Below, piece after piece: positions 20,757-31,123 of a stretch of DNA of 64,000 bases. Position 1 is the stretch's first letter, and every line of letters starts with the position of its first letter. Under the pieces are notes generated by a model, which was not told the DNA's origin, made no database searches, and saw only the letters and a list, made by a program, of their open reading frames with translations. Origin of the DNA: Aureitalea marina (GTDB lineage: Bacteria > Bacteroidota > Bacteroidia > Flavobacteriales > Flavobacteriaceae); the NCBI RefSeq assembly GCF_002943755.1, contig NZ_MQUB01000001.1:1538501-1602500 (forward strand). Reading direction: 5' to 3'. A program made the translations under genes and the position numbers.

Positions 20757-22213
20757 TTATTTTGTCGGGGTCCGTTGCAGGGCCTGTTGAAGAAAGGGCC
20801 AGAATTTCTGCATGGACGAGATACTGGCGCGTTCATCTGGTGAGTGCGCACCGCGGATGGTAGGTCCAATGGAGATCATATCCATACCCGGGTAATTCCT
20901 CCCTAGGATACCGCATTCCAGCCCGGCGTGACAAGCGGCTACATGAGCAGATTTACCATTGAGTTCCTGATAGAGATTATCCAGGACCTTTAAAATAGCA
21001 CTGTCCATATTGGGTGCCCATCCCGGGTACTCCCCTGAGAATTGGACTGTATATCCGGCTAGTTCGAATACAGCCCTCAGACTGTTAACCAGGTCCCCTT
21101 TGGAAGACTCCACCGAGGATCGAGTCAGGCAATCCAATCGGACAGAACCATTCTCCGAATGAACCCTGGCCAGGTTGTTCGAGGTTTCCACCAGATCGGC
21201 AATAGCGGGACTCATTCTGTACACACCATTGTGAATGGCCTCTATAACATTAAGTAGTGTAGCCTGCTCCTGAACCGGCATCACCGATCCGCCTTCCTGT
21301 CCAATTTCTTCCCACTGAATCTGAAGATCAGGCTCCAGCAGGTGATACTCATCCTTGATTTCCTTCTTGATCCCATCTAGCAGCTTCTCTATCTCATTTA
21401 GCATCCCAGGATCAAAACTAACCCAAACACGGCTTTCCCGCGGTATGGCATTTCGCAGGCCTCCCCCATCGATCTTCTGTATTCGGATATGATCGCCCAA
21501 AGCCAGCAAGCATCGATTCATCAATTTGTTGGCGTTACCCAATCCCTTGTGGATATCCATCCCACTATGACCTCCTTGAAGTCCTTTTACGGTGATCAAA
21601 GCAGACTTTGACCCTTTTGGAGCTGATTCTGTTGCATAAGTGGCAGTAGCCGAAACATCTATCCCTCCGGCACAACCTACCCCGATCTCGTCGTCCTCTT
21701 CAGTATCAAGGTTGAGTAATATATCGCCGGTCAACCAGCCTCCTTCAAGCCCCAAAGCTCCAGTCATTCCCGTTTCTTCATCTATGGTGAACAAAGCTTC
21801 GATGGCAGGATGAGGAATGTCTGCGGAAGACAACACCGCCATGATACAGGCCACCCCTAATCCATTGTCCGCACCTAGTGTGGTCCCCGTGCCTTAACCC
21901 AATCCCCATCAACATACATTTCAATCCCCTGGGTATTGAAGTCGAAGATTGTGTCGGCATTTTTTTGATGGACCATATCCAAATGCGCCTGCATGACCAC
22001 CGTCTTCCTATCCTCCATCCCTGAGCTTGCCGGTTTTCTGATCAGGACATTGCCAACCACGTCTATCGCTGTTTCCAAACCGAGGTCCTTGCCAAAATTG
22101 ACCATGAAATCAATAACTCTTTCTTCCTTTTTCGAGGGCCTTGGGACGGCATTGAGGTCTGCGAAGTGGTTCCAGACTGATTTTGGGTCCAGTTCTCGTA
22201 TTGTTTGATTCAT
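20757..22213 (-). pseudogene. pepD: Aminoacyl-histidine dipeptidase PepD (M20); frameshifted
   Basis: Zinc dipeptidase cleaving Xaa-His and related dipeptides. The N-terminal part starts at ATG 22213 (MNQTIRELDPKSVWNHF) and ends early at 21875 after DGDWVKARG. The rest resumes in another frame as a segment containing GVACIMAVLSS and TIDEETGMTGALGL. Inserting one base opposite position 21884 gives WVKARGTTLGADNGLGVA, the invariant metal-site segment, and a 486-residue protein, which is the family length. Metal motifs VMQAHLDMVHQ, GADNG and DEETGM are then all present. The later out-of-frame GTG-type starts are shadows of this gene. Confidence 0.9.
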
Positions 22214-22227
22214 GAATTCGTTTTTCA

Positions 22228-22235
22228 CAAAGCTA
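22228..22235 (-). promoter_or_regulatory. Candidate -7 element for pepD
   Basis: Minus-strand TAGCTTTG matches TAnnTTTG, 14 bases before the pepD ATG. It lies 31 bp from the divergent element at 22267-22274. Confidence 0.5.
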
Positions 22236-22278: not shown

Positions 22279-23778
22279 ATGCTCAAAAAAGGCCTCTTTT
22301 CGCTATTTGTTTGCTTGCTGCTAACTCCTTTTTCTTTCTGCCAATCTCTGGAAGAACAGTTGTTCCAGATCTTTGAAGAGAATGAGCTGATGGGGCTTTC
22401 GGTTGCGATAAAAACAGATCAGCAACTGCTGGATTTTCACTTTGGCCAGCGGGATTATTCGAGGGATCTGGCCGTTACCTCGCAGACCAGGTTTAGAATT
22501 GCCTCAATTTCCAAGACCTTCACTGCTTTGGGGTTAATGAGACTTCACGATCTGGGACTATTCGAGCTTGATGAGGACGTTTCGGGTTACCTGGGTTTTC
22601 AAGTCCGAAATCCAAATTTCCCCCAGCAGCCAATAACATTTAGGATGCTCCTCAGTCATCAAAGCAGCTTGCAAGACGGATCTGGTTATCCTGATTTCTT
22701 AAATGCTACCTACCAGGAATCACCGGTACCAACAATAGACGAACTATTGTTACCAAGTGGTGCTTATTACACAGAGAATTTGTGGCGTTCAGAATCTCCC
22801 GGGAGCTTTTTTGCCTACAGTAACCTGAATTTTGGTCTGATAGGCGCACTGATCGAGGCCCTGAGCGGCCAACGCTTTGACGTCTATATGAAGACACAGA
22901 TTTTGGAACCCCTTCAAATTGGCGGGAGTTATAATGTCCTGGACCTAGACGATATCGATCAAGTTGCCGTGCTGTATCGATTCAATGAAAAGTGGGAAGC
23001 ACAATTTGATCACTACAAAGGGGTTTATCCTCCTCCTAGGGATTTACAAGATTACCAACCAGGAACTAACGGACTCATTTTTGCGCCTCAGGGAGGGTTA
23101 CGGGCTTCTGCCTTGGAAGTAAATCGAATGTTGCATCTGTTTTCTGCAGGTGATGCCACATCAATCGGAATTTCTTCTCAGACGCTGGAGGAGATTACCT
23201 CCGCTCAGTGGTCCTACAACGGCAAAAACGGTGACAACTATTTTGGCCTTTTCAACAAATGGGGCCTTGGATTACACTTGGCAAACAACTCTGAAGATGA
23301 TGCTATCTGCCAATCGATCAGCTGGGGCCCATTTCTGGGTCATCCTGGAGAGGCTTATGGCCTGGTAAGCGATGCTTACTTCGATCCTGAACAAGGGACA
23401 GGGCTGGTTTTGATCATCAATGGAAAACAAAGCGGTTATCAAAGCGGGGAGAATTCTTCTTTTTACCAAATAGAGGAAGTTATTTTCGAGACAGTTTGCT
23501 CATACTGGGATGATCTTCTATCTGTGCAGACATCTGCCGTTAACGAATTGAGTATATCGCCTAACCCGGCCAGTGACCGAATCCTGCTTCACAATCCTGG
23601 AACGAGTGTCTATAGCTTGCACATCAAGGATATTCATGGCCGTATCAGCTTATCTTCATGGGAGATTAACCCGGGAAATCGGCATATTGAGCTTCCTGAT
23701 CTCTCAGCCGGATTGTATTTTGTTGAAATCGTTGGGAACAATGACAAAAAGGTCATTAAATTGCTGATTCAACAATGA
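22279..23778 (+). CDS. Secreted serine hydrolase (beta-lactamase/class C fold) with T9SS sorting domain
   Basis: A 499-residue protein with signal peptide (LFVCLLLTPFSFCQS), a class C beta-lactamase-like domain and a type A T9SS C-terminal domain. The active-site SxxK is SISK at residues 76-79 and YSN is at 180-182; LLSHQSSLQDG matches the family's LLxHTSGL-like motif. Such enzymes are usually D-aminopeptidases, esterases or penicillin-binding relatives rather than true beta-lactamases. The last 80 residues (ELSISPNPASDRI, LSAGLYFVEI, KVIKLLI) are the sorting signal for T9SS secretion or surface attachment. The gene overlaps DUF3810 by 4 bp (ATGA). Confidence 0.9.
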   Translation: MLKKGLFSLFVCLLLTPFSFCQSLEEQLFQIFEENELMGLSVAIKTDQQLLDFHFGQRDYSRDLAVTSQTRFRIASISKTFTALGLMRLHDLGLFELDEDVSGYLGFQVRNPNFPQQPITFRMLLSHQSSLQDGSGYPDFLNATYQESPVPTIDELLLPSGAYYTENLWRSESPGSFFAYSNLNFGLIGALIEALSGQRFDVYMKTQILEPLQIGGSYNVLDLDDIDQVAVLYRFNEKWEAQFDHYKGVYPPPRDLQDYQPGTNGLIFAPQGGLRASALEVNRMLHLFSAGDATSIGISSQTLEEITSAQWSYNGKNGDNYFGLFNKWGLGLHLANNSEDDAICQSISWGPFLGHPGEAYGLVSDAYFDPEQGTGLVLIINGKQSGYQSGENSSFYQIEEVIFETVCSYWDDLLSVQTSAVNELSISPNPASDRILLHNPGTSVYSLHIKDIHGRISLSSWEINPGNRHIELPDLSAGLYFVEIVGNNDKKVIKLLIQQ

Positions 23779-24845
23779 AGCGATCCCGAAGCGACCTGTT
23801 ATTAACCCTTTTCCTTCCCGTGCAGTTTCTTTTGCTCTGGTGGATCAGGCATTATCCGGAATGGATCGAATCTTGGTATAGCACGGGGGTTTATCCTTAC
23901 ATCTCGGTTTTACCTCGTTACCTGTTCGGATGGATCCCATTTTCGGTGGGTGATATCTTTTATCCATTGATCGGAATTATAGCCCTGCGCTGGGTGTATA
24001 AGAATTTTAGGCGACTTCGCTACGATACCCTCAATGTATTGTTTAGAATAGGTGCTGCAACCTCAGTTATCTATTTTGTCTTTCATATCATTTGGGGGTT
24101 GAACTATTACCGAGTTCCTCTCAATGAAAAACTCGACCTGGACCGGGACTATACCACGGCAGAACTGATCGATCTGACCAAGCGGTTTATCCAAAAGTCC
24201 AATGAGGTCCATGTAGCTCTGGGCTATGCCGACACGGCCAAGATAGACCTCCCCTACTCCAACCGGGAGATCATGGATTCTGCGGTACTCGGCTATGATC
24301 AATTGAAAGAGCAATACCCCAACTTGTCTTACGCTCCGATCAGCGTAAAACAAAGTGGATGGAGTCTTGGTTTGACTTATATGGGCTACAGTGGTTATTA
24401 CAATCCCTTTTCCGGGGAGGCACAGGTGAACAGGCTGATCAAATCCTACCGTTTCCCAGTGGTGAGCAGCCATGAGATCGCTCATCAATTGGGCTATGCG
24501 GCAGAGAACGAGGCCAATTTCCTCGCTACTTTGGCTACCATTCACCATCCTGACCCCTATGTACAATATACCGGCTACATCTTTGCCTTGCGATACCTGG
24601 TCAACGAAGTAGCCCGCCGGGACCTGGATACCTATCGTGAATTGGTGGAAGAGATCCACCCCGGGATCCTCAAAGGGTATAGGGAGATGAGGGAGTTCTG
24701 GGAATCCTATGAAAACCCCCTGGAGGACATCTCCAAGGCCTTCTGGAATCAGTTCCTTAAGGCCAATAACCAGGACAGAGGGATCATGAGCTATAGCTAT
24801 ATGGTCGCCTTGGTGATCAATTATTTTGAGGATAGGCCGTTATAG
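23775..24845 (+). CDS. DUF3810 family membrane protein with HExxH motif
   Basis: A 356-residue Bacteroidota protein with three membrane helices in the first 110 residues (LLLTLFLPVQFLLLWWI, IFYPLIGIIALRWVY, ATSVIYFVFHIIWGL) and then a soluble domain. The segment SSHEIAHQLGYAAENEANFLA carries HEIAH plus downstream NEANF, the arrangement of a gluzincin-like zinc site, so it is probably a periplasmic membrane-anchored peptidase. No substrate is known. Translationally coupled to the secreted serine hydrolase. Confidence 0.85.
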   Translation: MKRSRSDLLLTLFLPVQFLLLWWIRHYPEWIESWYSTGVYPYISVLPRYLFGWIPFSVGDIFYPLIGIIALRWVYKNFRRLRYDTLNVLFRIGAATSVIYFVFHIIWGLNYYRVPLNEKLDLDRDYTTAELIDLTKRFIQKSNEVHVALGYADTAKIDLPYSNREIMDSAVLGYDQLKEQYPNLSYAPISVKQSGWSLGLTYMGYSGYYNPFSGEAQVNRLIKSYRFPVVSSHEIAHQLGYAAENEANFLATLATIHHPDPYVQYTGYIFALRYLVNEVARRDLDTYRELVEEIHPGILKGYREMREFWESYENPLEDISKAFWNQFLKANNQDRGIMSYSYMVALVINYFEDRPL

Positions 24846-24946: not shown

Positions 24947-27901
24947 ATGAAAAGAACTACTCTCCTTGTTCTCTGGCTCTTAGGCCTGGGAACAGTTTGC
25001 GCCCAGGATTATTTTCCGAACAATAGTGGCGTAAAAGAAAAGAATTCCAATTACACGGCCCTGACCAATGCGACCATCTACATCAGTCCTGGTCAGGTAG
25101 TGCAGAACGGGACACTACTGATCCAAAATGGTAAGGTTGTGGCCTCGGGGCGAAATGTTAGCGTCCCGTCCAATTCGGTCTCCATCGACCTGGATGGTAA
25201 GACCATTTACCCATCCTTTATCGATGCCTACACCGGCTTTGGAGTGGAAAAACCCAAAAGAGCCCCTGGCTCCGGTCGATCCCCTCAGTATGAGGCAACC
25301 AGACAAGGTTTTTATTGGAATGATCATATCATGCCGGAGAACCGGGCAATGGATAAGTTTAAATACGATTCTAAAGCCGCAACCGAAATGCGCAAGGCGG
25401 GCTTTGGGGTGGTAAACACCCACATCATGGATGGGATCGCCCGTGGGACCGGTGTCCTAGTGGCCTTGAATGATGATGGCAGCGATGCGGATCGGGTGCT
25501 TAATGACGACTCCGGTCAGTTCTTCTCTTTTTCCAAGAGTGTGACCAGCCGGCAATCATATCCGGGTTCCCTCATGGGGTCCATTGCTTTGCTTCGCCAA
25601 ATGCACTACGATGCGGATTGGTATGCCAAAGGAAATTCGGAAACCAAGGACAGAAGCTTGGAAGCCCTGATCGCCAGTCGTGGCCTGACTTCTTTCTTTG
25701 AAGCAGGGAATAAGGGCAATGACCTGCGAGCCGATAAGATTGCGGACATGTTCAACCTGAACTATGTCATCGTCGGTGGTGGGGACGAATACGAAATGAT
25801 GGATAAGATCAAGGCAACCAATGCCCGTTTCATCATCCCGATCAATTTTCCGGATGCCTTCGATGTAAGCGATCCCTATGCTGCTGACTTTGTTTCCCTG
25901 GCCGATATGCGCGAATGGAACCAAGCTCCGATGAACCCAAAAAGCCTCTCGGATGCCGGGGTCACTTTTGCATTGACTACTCACGACTTGAAAAAGGCGG
26001 GAGACTTCCACGGCAAATTGCGCAAAGCCCTGGAATATGGTTTTGATAAAACAAAGGCCTTGGAAAGTCTGACTACTGTTCCGGCGGCTATTTTGGGTCA
26101 GAGTGATGCCCTGGGTACCCTGGAAAACGGTAAAATGGCCAATTTCCTGATCACTTCGGGTGATATCTTTGACAAGAGTACCACCATTTATGAGAACTGG
26201 GTACAAGGAAAGAAACATGTGATCAACTCCATGGACCAGCGAGATATCCGGGGACAGTACAACCTGACCGCCGGTGGTAAGACCTACCAGGTGAAGATCG
26301 AAGGTAGTTATGGCAAGCCGAGCATGAGCACCACCATAGGAGAGACCAAATACCCTTCCAAACTGACCTACAGTAACGACTGGATCACCTTCTCTATTAC
26401 TGACGATGCCACCAAAGCGGTGAGTCGCGGTTCCGGATTGGTTCCTGCCAGCGGAAATACGATCAGCGGTAAGCTGGTCCTACCCAGCGGAATGGAAAGC
26501 AACTTTACTGCCACCCGAACCGGAGACCTGGAGAAGGACGAGAAAAAAGCAGAATCCGGAGCATCTCCCGAAATTATGCCAATGACCTATCCCAACATGA
26601 GCTATGGCTGGACGGCCCTGCCTACCGCTCAGAATATGCTTTTCCGAAACGCCACAGTATGGACTGGTGAGGCAGACGGAATACTGGAGAATACCGACGT
26701 CCTGATCCAAAATGGAAAGATAGCAGCTGTTGGTCAAAACCTGAATGCACGAGGAGCTCGGGTGATCGACGCCACGGGTAAACACCTTACGGCAGGGATC
26801 ATTGACGAGCATTCGCATATCGCGGCTCTGTCTATCAACGAAGGTGGGCACAATTCTTCGGCAGAAGTTAAGATAGAAGATGTGGTGGATTCGGAGGATA
26901 TCAACATCTACAGGAACCTGGCAGGTGGAGTAACTTCCATTCAGATCCTACATGGTAGTGCCAACCCCATCGGTGGCCGCTCTGCCATCATCAAACTGAA
27001 ATGGGGGATGGAGGCTGATGACCTCATCTATGACAACAGTCCAAAATTCATCAAATTCGCCTTGGGGGAGAACGTCAAGCAATCCAACTGGCAGAGTTAC
27101 TCCCGATTCCCACAATCCCGTATGGGTGTGGAGCAGGTCTTCGTGAACTACTTCAACCGGGCCAAGGAATACGATGCCATCAAGAAAAGTGGTAAAAGCT
27201 ACCGCTATGACGAAGAACTGGAGGTATTGGCAGAGATCCTGAACGGTGAGCGCTTTATCTCTTGTCACTCCTATGTACAAAGTGAGATCAACATGCTGAT
27301 GAAAGTAGCGGAGAGCTTCGATTTCAGGGTAAACACTTTTACCCACATCCTGGAAGGCTACAAAGTGGCGGACAAGATGAAGCAGCACGGCGTAGGAGGA
27401 TCTACCTTCTCCGACTGGTGGGCTTATAAATTCGAGGTGAATGATGCTATCCCATACAATGCGGCCATCATGGCGGCCGAAGGGGTAACGGTAGCCATCA
27501 ACAGTGACGATGGGGAAATGTCTCGAAGACTGAACCAGGAAGCTGCAAAAAGTGTGAAATACGGCGGTATGAGCGAAGAGGAAGCCTGGAAGATGGTGAC
27601 CATCAACCCGGCCAAGCTATTGCATTTGGACGAGCGTGTGGGAAGTATAGCTGTTGGTAAGGATGCTGATCTGGTCCTTTGGACCGATAATCCGTTGTCT
27701 ATTTATGCCAAGGCAGAAAAGACCATCATTGAAGGTACTGTATTCTTTGACCTGGAAACCGATAAAGCCAAGCGGGAAGCCATCAAGGCAGAACGATCCA
27801 AGTTGGTCAATATGATGTTGTCCGAAAAGAATGGAGGCGGCAAGACACGGGCGCCTAAACGAAAAGAAAACAGGCATTTCCACTGCGAATCCTTAAACTA
27901 A
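24947..27901 (+). CDS. Large exported amidohydrolase, two amidohydrolase modules
   Basis: A 984-residue protein with a signal peptide (LLVLWLLGLGTVCAQ). It contains two repeats of the amidohydrolase layout. Module 1, about residues 40-430, starts TNATIYISPGQVVQNGTLLIQNGKV but lacks the first metal-binding HxH (YPSFIDAYTGFG instead). Module 2, from about residue 560, starts NATVWTGEADG and keeps IDEHSHIA, CHSYVQSE, FTHILEG and INSDDGE, a full set of metal ligands, followed by the usual end KDADLVLWTDNPL. It is probably a periplasmic metal-dependent hydrolase of the imidazolonepropionase/prolidase-like group; substrate unknown. The next gene encodes a third such module 6 bp downstream. Confidence 0.88.
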   Translation: MKRTTLLVLWLLGLGTVCAQDYFPNNSGVKEKNSNYTALTNATIYISPGQVVQNGTLLIQNGKVVASGRNVSVPSNSVSIDLDGKTIYPSFIDAYTGFGVEKPKRAPGSGRSPQYEATRQGFYWNDHIMPENRAMDKFKYDSKAATEMRKAGFGVVNTHIMDGIARGTGVLVALNDDGSDADRVLNDDSGQFFSFSKSVTSRQSYPGSLMGSIALLRQMHYDADWYAKGNSETKDRSLEALIASRGLTSFFEAGNKGNDLRADKIADMFNLNYVIVGGGDEYEMMDKIKATNARFIIPINFPDAFDVSDPYAADFVSLADMREWNQAPMNPKSLSDAGVTFALTTHDLKKAGDFHGKLRKALEYGFDKTKALESLTTVPAAILGQSDALGTLENGKMANFLITSGDIFDKSTTIYENWVQGKKHVINSMDQRDIRGQYNLTAGGKTYQVKIEGSYGKPSMSTTIGETKYPSKLTYSNDWITFSITDDATKAVSRGSGLVPASGNTISGKLVLPSGMESNFTATRTGDLEKDEKKAESGASPEIMPMTYPNMSYGWTALPTAQNMLFRNATVWTGEADGILENTDVLIQNGKIAAVGQNLNARGARVIDATGKHLTAGIIDEHSHIAALSINEGGHNSSAEVKIEDVVDSEDINIYRNLAGGVTSIQILHGSANPIGGRSAIIKLKWGMEADDLIYDNSPKFIKFALGENVKQSNWQSYSRFPQSRMGVEQVFVNYFNRAKEYDAIKKSGKSYRYDEELEVLAEILNGERFISCHSYVQSEINMLMKVAESFDFRVNTFTHILEGYKVADKMKQHGVGGSTFSDWWAYKFEVNDAIPYNAAIMAAEGVTVAINSDDGEMSRRLNQEAAKSVKYGGMSEEEAWKMVTINPAKLLHLDERVGSIAVGKDADLVLWTDNPLSIYAKAEKTIIEGTVFFDLETDKAKREAIKAERSKLVNMMLSEKNGGGKTRAPKRKENRHFHCESLN

Positions 27902-27907
27902 GCCATC

Positions 27908-29200
27908 ATGAGAACATTAAAGAATTATATAGGAATATTTATTGTGCTGGCCGGTTTGCAAGCCTGGGCTCAGCAAACACCGGCTCCTGCTCAGCAGGGA
28001 GTCATAACCATTAACGGGGCAACTGCTCACGTAGGAGATGGTAATGTAATTGAGAACAGCGTGATCGTCTTTGAAAATGGGGTGATTACGGCTATTGGTG
28101 GTGCAGGAACTGCCACCCAAGGGATCGTTGTGGACGCAAGCGGCAAGCATGTTTATCCCGGCATAATCGCGCCTGGTAAATCCCTCGGTTTGGTTGAGGT
28201 GAATGCCGTGCGAGCCAGTGATGATGAAGAGGAAATTGGGGATATCAAGCCTCATATCCGCTCCATCATTGCCTACAATGCAGAGAGTAAAGTTGTGGAA
28301 AGCATGCGGCCAAATGGAGTGCTGTTGGCCCAAAGTACACCCAAAGGCGGGACAATTTCCGGCACCTCGAGTATTGTACAGTTTGATGCCTGGAACTGGG
28401 AAGATGCCATAGTAAAGGAAGATGACGGTATTCATATGAACTGGCCAAACAGCTACCGACGCGGACGTTGGTGGTTGGGTGAGGCCAGAGGATGGCGACC
28501 TAATAAGGATTACGCTAAGCAAGTTGGGAATATCGACGAGTATATGAGCCAGGCCTTTGCTTATGGAAAAGGAGGAGCCGATAGTCGAAATGAGGCCTTT
28601 GAGGCCATGCAAGGACTTCAGGACGGTAATAAGCGACTATACATCTATACCCATGGGCAGAAAGAGATCATCGATGCGGTAACTACGGCAAAAGCACATG
28701 GAGTGCAGCATGTGGTGATCGTGGGAGGTTATGAGGCCTATAAGGTGATCCCTTTCCTGAAGCAAAACAATATCCCGGTATTGGTCAGACAGACTCATGC
28801 CTTACCCTTTAGGGATGGCGACGATTACGACCTGCCGTATAAATTGCCGATGTTGCTTGCAGAAGGTGGCGTAATGGTAGGGATTCAGAATGCAGACATG
28901 TCCAACTTCCAGACTAGGAACCTACCCTTTTATGCAGGACAGGTAGTAGGTCAGGGAATGGATAAAGAGGAAGCCTTGAAACTGATCACCTCCAACACAG
29001 CGAACATATTAGGAATAGGTGACCATTACGGAACCCTCGAAGTTGGCAAAAGTGCCACTCTTTTTGTGAGCGAGGGAGATGCCCTGGACATGCGGACCAA
29101 TCAATTGACCCATGCCTTTATCGATGGTCGGGAAATTTCCCTGGAAACGCATCAGACCAAACTTTGGAAAAGGTATTCTGAGAAATACAATCAGGACTAA
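27908..29200 (+). CDS. Exported amidohydrolase-like protein, partner of the preceding gene
   Basis: A 430-residue protein with a signal peptide (IGIFIVLAGLQAWAQ) and an amidohydrolase fold like module 1 of its neighbour. The segment that should hold HxH reads VYPGIIAPGKSLG, so the first metal site is missing. HVVIVGGYEAYKVIPFL and LEVGKSATLFVSEGDALD mark the conserved late part. It may be a non-catalytic subunit of the preceding enzyme. This paired organisation recurs in Bacteroidota. A strong terminator follows at 29221. Confidence 0.85.
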   Translation: MRTLKNYIGIFIVLAGLQAWAQQTPAPAQQGVITINGATAHVGDGNVIENSVIVFENGVITAIGGAGTATQGIVVDASGKHVYPGIIAPGKSLGLVEVNAVRASDDEEEIGDIKPHIRSIIAYNAESKVVESMRPNGVLLAQSTPKGGTISGTSSIVQFDAWNWEDAIVKEDDGIHMNWPNSYRRGRWWLGEARGWRPNKDYAKQVGNIDEYMSQAFAYGKGGADSRNEAFEAMQGLQDGNKRLYIYTHGQKEIIDAVTTAKAHGVQHVVIVGGYEAYKVIPFLKQNNIPVLVRQTHALPFRDGDDYDLPYKLPMLLAEGGVMVGIQNADMSNFQTRNLPFYAGQVVGQGMDKEEALKLITSNTANILGIGDHYGTLEVGKSATLFVSEGDALDMRTNQLTHAFIDGREISLETHQTKLWKRYSEKYNQD

Positions 29201-30312: not shown

Positions 30313-30320
30313 TATCTTTG
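30313..30320 (+). promoter_or_regulatory. Candidate -7 element of the rRNA methyltransferase gene
   Basis: TATCTTTG matches TAnnTTTG, 6 bases before ATG 30327, implying a very short leader. Confidence 0.5.
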
Positions 30321-30326
30321 ATCGGC

Positions 30327-31123
30327 ATGAAGACAATAAGCAGCACAGCCAACCCATTGGTCAAAGATTTAGCCTTGTTGCAACGCAAATCTCGGGAACG
30401 AAAACAGCGAGGCATCTTTATCGTAGAGGGCCAGCGGGAGCTCTCCCTGGCACTGCAAGGAGGCTATGAACTGGACAAGTTGCTCTTTTACCCTGACCTG
30501 ATCAACTTACAAGATCTGCAGATATTGGTCGGCCCTCTGCCCGAGGAAACAATCGCAATCAGCAAAGATGTTTATGAGAAGCTGGCATACCGGAATTCTA
30601 CAGAGGGGGTCATTGCCTGTTTGAAGATCAAAGAGCATTCCCTAAGCTCGGCCGTTCTCACCAACGAAGATATGCTCCTACTGGTTGCCGAGGCCCGGAA
30701 AAACCAGGCAATATAGGTGCCTTACTACGTACCGCTGACGCTGCAGGCCTGCATGGGGTTATTATAGCCAATCCGCGGTCTGATCTATACAACCCAAACA
30801 TCATCCGATCTAGCGTAGGCACCGTCTTCACCATGAAGGTCTTTGAAGGATCGACCTCAGAGATCATTCATTGGTTAAAAGAGCAAAAGATAAAAGTTTA
30901 CTGTGCAGCTCTTCAGGCCTCTGAATCCTATTGGGAGACCGATCTTAGAGGTCGAACGGCCTTGGTGGTCGGTACGGAGGCAGATGGCCTTTCTCAAGAA
31001 TGGTTGGACAATAGCGATCAGAATATCGTCATTCCGATGGCAGGCGCGATCGACTCCATGAATGTATCCGTGGCAGCCGGAATCCTTATCTTTGAGGCCA
31101 AGAGACAAAGAAGCGCTCGTTAA
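30327..31123 (+). pseudogene. TrmH/SpoU family RNA 2'-O-methyltransferase; frameshifted
   Basis: SPOUT-class methyltransferase acting on rRNA or tRNA ribose with S-adenosylmethionine. The N-terminal frame from ATG 30327 (MKTISSTANPLVKDLALL) carries the substrate-binding domain, with GIFIVEGQRELSLAL, and ends at 30716. The catalytic half continues in another frame to 31123. The break is at GCCCGG (CCC at 30694-30696); one extra C gives VAEAPEKPGNIGALLRTADA, which is conserved motif 1, and a 265-residue protein, normal for the family. Motifs 2 and 3, VVGTEADGLSQEW and IPMAGAIDSMNVSVAAGI, are intact. Relationship to RlmB or other members cannot be fixed by eye. Confidence 0.88.

Follow-up and report, generated by a model that had tools for sequence, protein, structure and literature searches.

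A two-gene exported amidohydrolase system of Aureitalea marina with one predicted active module and two degenerate paralogues

A 64,000-nucleotide stretch of the Aureitalea marina genome (contig NZ_MQUB01000001.1, positions 1,538,501 to 1,602,500; hereafter the window, whose numbering is used throughout) carries at 24947-29200 two consecutive genes, A and B, that together encode three amidohydrolase modules, modules 1 and 2 in A and a third in B. The two products probably form a periplasmic heteromeric metallo-hydrolase with a single active site, located in module 2, and with module 1 and B as pseudoenzyme partners. We infer the metal content and activity of module 2, its dependence on the partners, and the gathering of the three modules in one complex. 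The co-occurrence of these genes across related bacteria suggests that two inactive copies have been kept as partners of an active one. Both reading frames are open, and Pfam Amidohydro_1 (PF01979) matches A with 91.6 bits and B with 31.7 bits, each above the cut-off of 25. The predicted structure of A, obtained from a 45-row alignment (mean predicted local distance difference test (pLDDT) 89.1, predicted template modelling score (pTM) 0.86), contains two barrels separated by an all-beta stretch; the original prediction of two modules in the large protein and a third in its partner is thus borne out by Pfam and predicted structure. The layout is as follows.

24947-27901, + strand: gene A, 984 residues, exported, two amidohydrolase barrels with a beta domain between (open frame, Pfam, model)
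24947-25003, + strand: signal peptide of A, residues 1-19, judged by eye; the likely cleavage site lies just before Gln20
25049-26230, + strand: module 1 of A, about residues 35-428, degenerate amidohydrolase barrel (predicted structure; 0 to 2 of 6 ligands in 27/27 rows)
26246-26530, + strand: all-beta domain between the modules of A, about residues 434-528 (predicted structure; a Pfam search at E 0.01 gave no match)
26624-27757, + strand: module 2 of A, about residues 560-937, barrel with the full metal-site set (Z 48.1 to 3ooq)
27908-29200, + strand: gene B, 430 residues, exported degenerate amidohydrolase barrel, starting 6 nucleotides past A (open frame, Pfam, model)

The usual binuclear amidohydrolase set comprises an HxH motif (two His separated by one residue), a carboxylated Lys, two further His residues and an Asp. 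In module 2, the motif IDEHSHIA supplies H622 and H624, and the full set is H622, H624, K703, H774, H800 and D854. The invariant strand-4 Lys, K703, had been absent from the ligand list first proposed (HSH, later His residues and Asp), and it completes the usual binuclear set. In the model of A, H622 and H624 lie at the strand spanning residues 618-623, K703 is on 701-705, H774 ends 770-774, H800 is on 797-801, and D854 stands directly past 849-852, so that the ligand pattern of the PF01979 superfamily over strands 1, 4, 5, 6 and 8 is present in module 2 (135/135 proteins, with strands taken from the model). A binuclear site with a carboxylated K703 is probably formed, as far as sequence can indicate. 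The expected ligands are listed here.

26810-26818, + strand: H622-S623-H624, expected metal ligands at strand 1 (both His in 135/135)
27053-27055, + strand: K703, strand 4 (model strand 701-705), probable carboxylated bridging Lys (135/135)
27266-27268, + strand: H774, expected ligand at strand 5 (135/135)
27344-27346, + strand: H800, expected ligand at strand 6 (135/135)
27506-27508, + strand: D854, expected catalytic Asp, just past strand 8 (135/135)

All six ligands are complete in each of 135 fused A proteins and in 13/13 proteins from loci where A is split into two genes. The 135-row set omits L081, a copy of the L044 genome, receives no row from partial or frameshifted A loci (L115, L120, L134 and others), and includes 12 rows from genomes in which A and B are at separate places (L222-L233); redundancy of other kinds among the genomes was kept. 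When the six ligands are counted row by row, 27/27 module-2 rows have 6/6 ligands, compared with 0 to 2 of 6 in 27/27 module-1 rows and 27/27 B rows. When a sister gene pair, act and par (see below), is included, the active rows (27 of module 2 and 13 of act) are complete in 40/40 cases, and the degenerate rows retain 0 to 2 of 6 ligands in 67/67. The claim that only module 2 carries the metal ligands therefore stands.

The motifs by which the degenerate modules had been recognized are exact: the HxH place reads FIDAYTGFG in module 1 (residues 91-99) and IIAPGKSLG in B (residues 86-94). Retention of HxH by the degenerate modules of most relatives had been named as evidence that would count against the original prediction. 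The motif is missing from 134/135 fused first modules, 13/13 split first modules and 150/150 B proteins, and is thus kept in 1/135, 0/13 and 0/150, respectively. Module 1 and B lack the metal site that characterizes PF01979 and are homologues without it; judging from these sequences, their degeneracy is old and general. The following positions of the two degenerate modules are relevant.

25229-25237, + strand: codons 95-97 of module 1 (Y-T-G) in the HxH place (alignment columns)
28175-28183, + strand: codons 90-92 of B (G-K-S) in the HxH place (HxH in 0/150)
28256-28381, + strand: conserved stretch of B, IRSIIAYNAES..RPNGVL..GTSSIVQ, residues 117-158 (R134 and G137 in 150/150, N124 in 140/150)
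28916-28930, + strand: conserved RNLPF of B, residues 337-341 (R337 in 143/150, N338 in 144/150)

Loss of the metal ligands could in principle mark enzymes with a re-made active site, using another metal or metal-free chemistry. In favour of such a site, module 1 carries a Glu at the strand-5 ligand column in 16/27 rows, and B keeps other strongly conserved residues. However, Gly occupies the strand-6 His column in 20/27 module-1 rows and 24/27 B rows (and in 12/13 rows of the sister par), and a search of the six ligand columns found an invariant polar residue at none of them in either module 1 or B; we regard a re-made site as improbable. Functionless decay of duplicated modules is more improbable still. 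Catalytic residues would be the expected first loss, but that loss is common across the phylum, and yet B frames measure 421-511 residues in 148/150 loci, the other two (L071 and L119) ending at contig edges. Some B residues are 100% identical, and the invariance of G94, R134 and G137 (150/150) places the dead modules under constraint. In addition, B accompanies module 2 in 155 genomes and stands alone in none. Pseudogene decay was accordingly ruled out on the combination of phylum-wide loss with conserved residues, maintained frame length and co-occurrence.

The distribution of the genes links the active and degenerate modules functionally. In the window and at all 30 related loci A precedes B, which gives 31 copies of each gene, with one B truncated by a contig end. 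Where a locus has a single A and a single B on the same strand, the spacing between them is –26 to +111 bases in 110 of 124 cases, the negative values depending on the longest start being taken. The scan of the genome contigs covered its best 80 matches. Among 296 genomes of the phylum, the B profile has a match at E ≤1e-25 in 169 and module 2 at E ≤1e-50 in 158. At a cut-off of 1e-70, 155 genomes have both module 2 and B, none has B only, 140 have neither, and one has module 2 only; in this sole case the module-2 sequence runs into a block of N. The cut-off counts 14 genomes with weaker B matches as lacking B, and all 14 carry the sister pair, 13 as neighbours and one (G274) on different contigs. 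The form of A also varies. Among the 150 module-2 matches listed, 87 belong to open frames of 950 residues or longer and 63 to frames shorter than 700 residues. Thirteen distant loci carry two neighbouring genes in place of A, giving three genes in the order module 1, module 2, B; because A is split in two there, the active gene has a dead one on either side.

The weaker B and module-2 matches led to the sister pair itself, e.g. at L246:1342-3944, which consists of act, a complete single-module gene (DTHSH), followed by the degenerate par (IDAHSVVGL or similar). The two overlap by four bases in 11/13 loci, and the six ligands are complete in 13/13 act rows, which share 28-33% identity with module 2. 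With strong matches defined as E ≤1e-118 for par and E ≤1e-140 for act, 66 of the 296 genomes match both and none matches one alone; set aside from the 66 were G246, in which one gene is matched by both queries, and G176, with an act fragment only. The pair is adjacent in 63 of the 66, G274 being one of the three non-adjacent cases, and 52 of the 66 also carry module 2 and B. It was absent from the genome of the window at E 1e-60. Like A and B, act and par are adjacent active and degenerate amidohydrolases, and in the module tree par groups with module 1 and B; unlike A and B, they are two single-module genes with no third module seen.

In a quick tree of 70 of the 107 module rows, built without an outgroup, module 1, B and par lie on one side of a branch with support 96, with module 2 and act on the other. 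A second quick tree of 111 rows also joins the degenerate modules (support 80). It included four outgroup rows, one of which (L007, picked by length) was wrong, presumably a formiminotransferase-like frame rather than the amidohydrolase, and for this reason the root of the tree was not used. The simplest account of these sequence relationships would be one ancient duplication into an active and a dead module, a second duplication of the dead one, and then fusion of modules 1 and 2 (or splits) in some lineages.

To the linkage of the genes can be added predicted packing. Module 2 and B share one frame in the window and 28 relatives, so that they could be folded as one chain, and a read-through chain was modelled from paired rows with stop codons read as Gly. 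The model has a mean pLDDT of 83.5 and a pTM of 0.82, although linker residues 412-441 fall below 50 in pLDDT. As a rule of thumb, two barrels of this size whose relative position is undefined are expected to give a pTM of ~0.5. The lack of a predicted interface was the other outcome that would have counted against the original prediction; the value of 0.82 argues indirectly for one, in a read-through chain modelled without a negative control, and module 2 and B are predicted to pack in a fixed arrangement. A possible ordering effect of B on the conserved loop at residues 824-833 was considered: for A alone, the two nearest ten-residue blocks (821-840) have mean pLDDT values of 49 and 64, compared with 66 and 87 for the model of module 2 with B (823-842 in A numbering). 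However, the loop near 713-722 shows no gain (59 versus 52) and the alignments differ, and the case for ordering by B is therefore weak.

Both proteins also appear to be exported. N-terminal signal peptides were recognized by eye in A and in B, and a Gln is found past the likely cleavage site (Q20 of A in 135/135; column 22 of B in 118/150). In Bacteroidetes, signal peptidase I exposes an N-terminal Gln, according to one report (PMC5837995). A matches this N-terminal-Gln export pattern throughout and B mostly, which supports export. Of the proposal that all three modules form one periplasmic complex, the export part is thereby strengthened, with signal peptides judged by eye, and the single complex is what we infer.

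Several observations weigh against a heteromer built around module 2. Co-occurrence and adjacency amount to a functional link, not contact, and the pTM of 0.82 comes from a covalently linked AlphaFold2 monomer with no non-interacting control. A and B were matched at different places in 12 genomes. In these, A was found away from B in 12/12 genomes searched, in 2 on the same contig at ~1 Mb or more and in 10 on another contig; for 7 of the 12 the B locus was read and no A lies beside B, and the other 5 have a similar B. The same genomes also speak for the partnership, since the two genes occur together there even without linkage. One first module (L208) keeps HSH, with S, D, G and E at its other four ligand places. 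The single origin of the dead modules depends on quick trees with support of 96 and 80, and long-branch attraction among relaxed modules may have contributed to it. Finally, a substrate clue was sought from neighbouring genes and none was obtained, as no neighbour recurs around 18 diverse loci (by eye, from the first 50 residues).

An alternative is that the degenerate modules are independent binding proteins, e.g. periplasmic substrate carriers or sensors, acting in the same pathway without a stable complex with module 2. The separate locations of A and B in the 12 genomes would fit such proteins, a shared pathway alone would fit the co-occurrence, and the conserved residues of B may lie elsewhere than at an interface. 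Against this, module 1 is fused to module 2, by frame length, in 87 of the 150 matches listed, and module 2 modelled with B reaches the pTM given above; we consider independent binders unlikely, albeit less so than a re-made site. In the heteromer that we favour, module 2 would be the only catalyst, with a binuclear site formed by two His of strand 1, a probably carboxylated Lys of strand 4, one His each of strands 5 and 6, and the Asp that follows strand 8, and would hydrolyse an amide-, peptide- or lactam-like bond of a small substrate. The simplest origin of module 1 and B would be a single old duplication of the active module with subsequent loss of the metal site; both would pack on module 2 and contribute to the shape or stability of its active site or to substrate binding.

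The nearest solved structure by sequence is 3ooq, a Thermotoga maritima amidohydrolase, for both module 2 (phmmer E 1.7e-51) and B (E 2.1e-26). Module 2 superposes on it with Z 48.1 and a root mean square deviation of 1.8 over 366 residues, the next entries having Z of 25 or less, and the HSH and later Lys, His, His and Asp align. Unlike A and B, 3ooq has one module per chain with a complete ligand set, and its single-module class does not describe the present proteins: A is two-module, and 155 of the 156 genomes that have module 2 also have B. The locus tag of 3ooq is, we believe, TM0814, and a search of the open-access literature found no paper naming TM0814. The next best folds for module 2 (3feq, 2p9b and 1onw, prolidase-like and isoaspartyl dipeptidase-like) give Z of 24-25, but they are single modules with 22-23% identity to module 2, and their substrates are not transferable. 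Pfam names module 2 and B only as amidohydrolase. Named NCBIfam enzymes (imidazolonepropionase, Xaa-Pro dipeptidase and others) were ruled out, with best scores of 92.1 bits against 500 (NF051886) for A and 30.9 bits against a cut-off of 253 for B; among the best 25 of 69 rows for A and the best 25 of 28 for B, all are far under cut-off. The substrate was thus identified neither by neighbouring genes nor by named families. An open-access literature search by title and start of abstract gave, among the matches listed, no paper on this amidohydrolase family, subscription papers being outside that search.

The nearest precedent for a dead subunit of this kind is aspartate transcarbamoylase (ATCase) of Pseudomonas aeruginosa, for which an inactive dihydroorotase homologue chain (pDHO) of the amidohydrolase superfamily is reported to be required for activity (PMC7053772). 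On that description, an inactive amidohydrolase-type chain is needed by its active partner in a heteromer, as we propose here. The active partner in P. aeruginosa is a transcarbamoylase, of another fold and cytosolic. In A and B, by contrast, the active and dead modules are paralogous and exported, and two of them are dead. With its modelled packing, A/B may represent a pDHO-type pseudoenzyme heteromer, in which the inactive subunit would be bound and required.

Further features lie within and around the two genes.

27884-27886, + strand: Cys980, conserved in the C-terminal tail of A (127/135)
23775-24845, + strand: DUF3810 protein carrying an HEIAH motif (Pfam PF12725, E 7.2e-98), a local neighbour upstream of A and outside the A/B unit

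We also considered whether C773 might form a disulphide with the tail Cys of A, the latter being counted as any Cys within the last 45 residues. Both are present in 118/135 proteins, the tail Cys without C773 in 11, C773 only in 2, and neither in 4; as each occurs without the other, they are not strictly coupled. By eye, the tail Cys is often followed by an acidic residue and then Ser or Thr. The DUF3810 protein is possibly an uncharacterised metallopeptidase; matches to its gene occur in 17/30 related loci, and a PepD-like gene is found in 14/30. In the window, the gene at 20757-22228 on the – strand, which we take to be a PepD-like dipeptidase, is present as two open reading frames in different frames (20757-21854 and 21875-22228), where relatives have one; from the sequence, this split appears to be a frameshift or assembly error. 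The gene at 30318-31123 on the + strand, which we assume to resemble an RNA methyltransferase, likewise comprises two open reading frames in different frames, relatives having one of ~800-950 bases. In 3 of the 7 B loci without A, a similar gene of ~300 residues, presumably S9-type peptidase-like, directly follows B (L193:7144-8037, L196:7178-8080 and L200:7441-8340).

The sister pair and the split loci raise a wider possibility, which we put forward tentatively and with less confidence than the assignment of A and B: a phylum-wide heteromeric class in which the active barrel would depend on one or two pseudo-barrels, all of which trace back to the same ancient duplication. Such a class would occur as the two-chain act/par, as three chains (module 1, module 2 and B), and as the fused A/B, and its dead barrels would complete or gate the active site in trans. 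Among kinases and proteases, there are known cases of pseudoenzymes that form obligatory complexes with their active paralogues; in the amidohydrolase superfamily such complexes seem little described, and here module 2 and B together reach 155/296 sampled genomes of the phylum. Since the same design exists in nature in split, fused and two-chain form, the role of the dead subunits would be directly testable.

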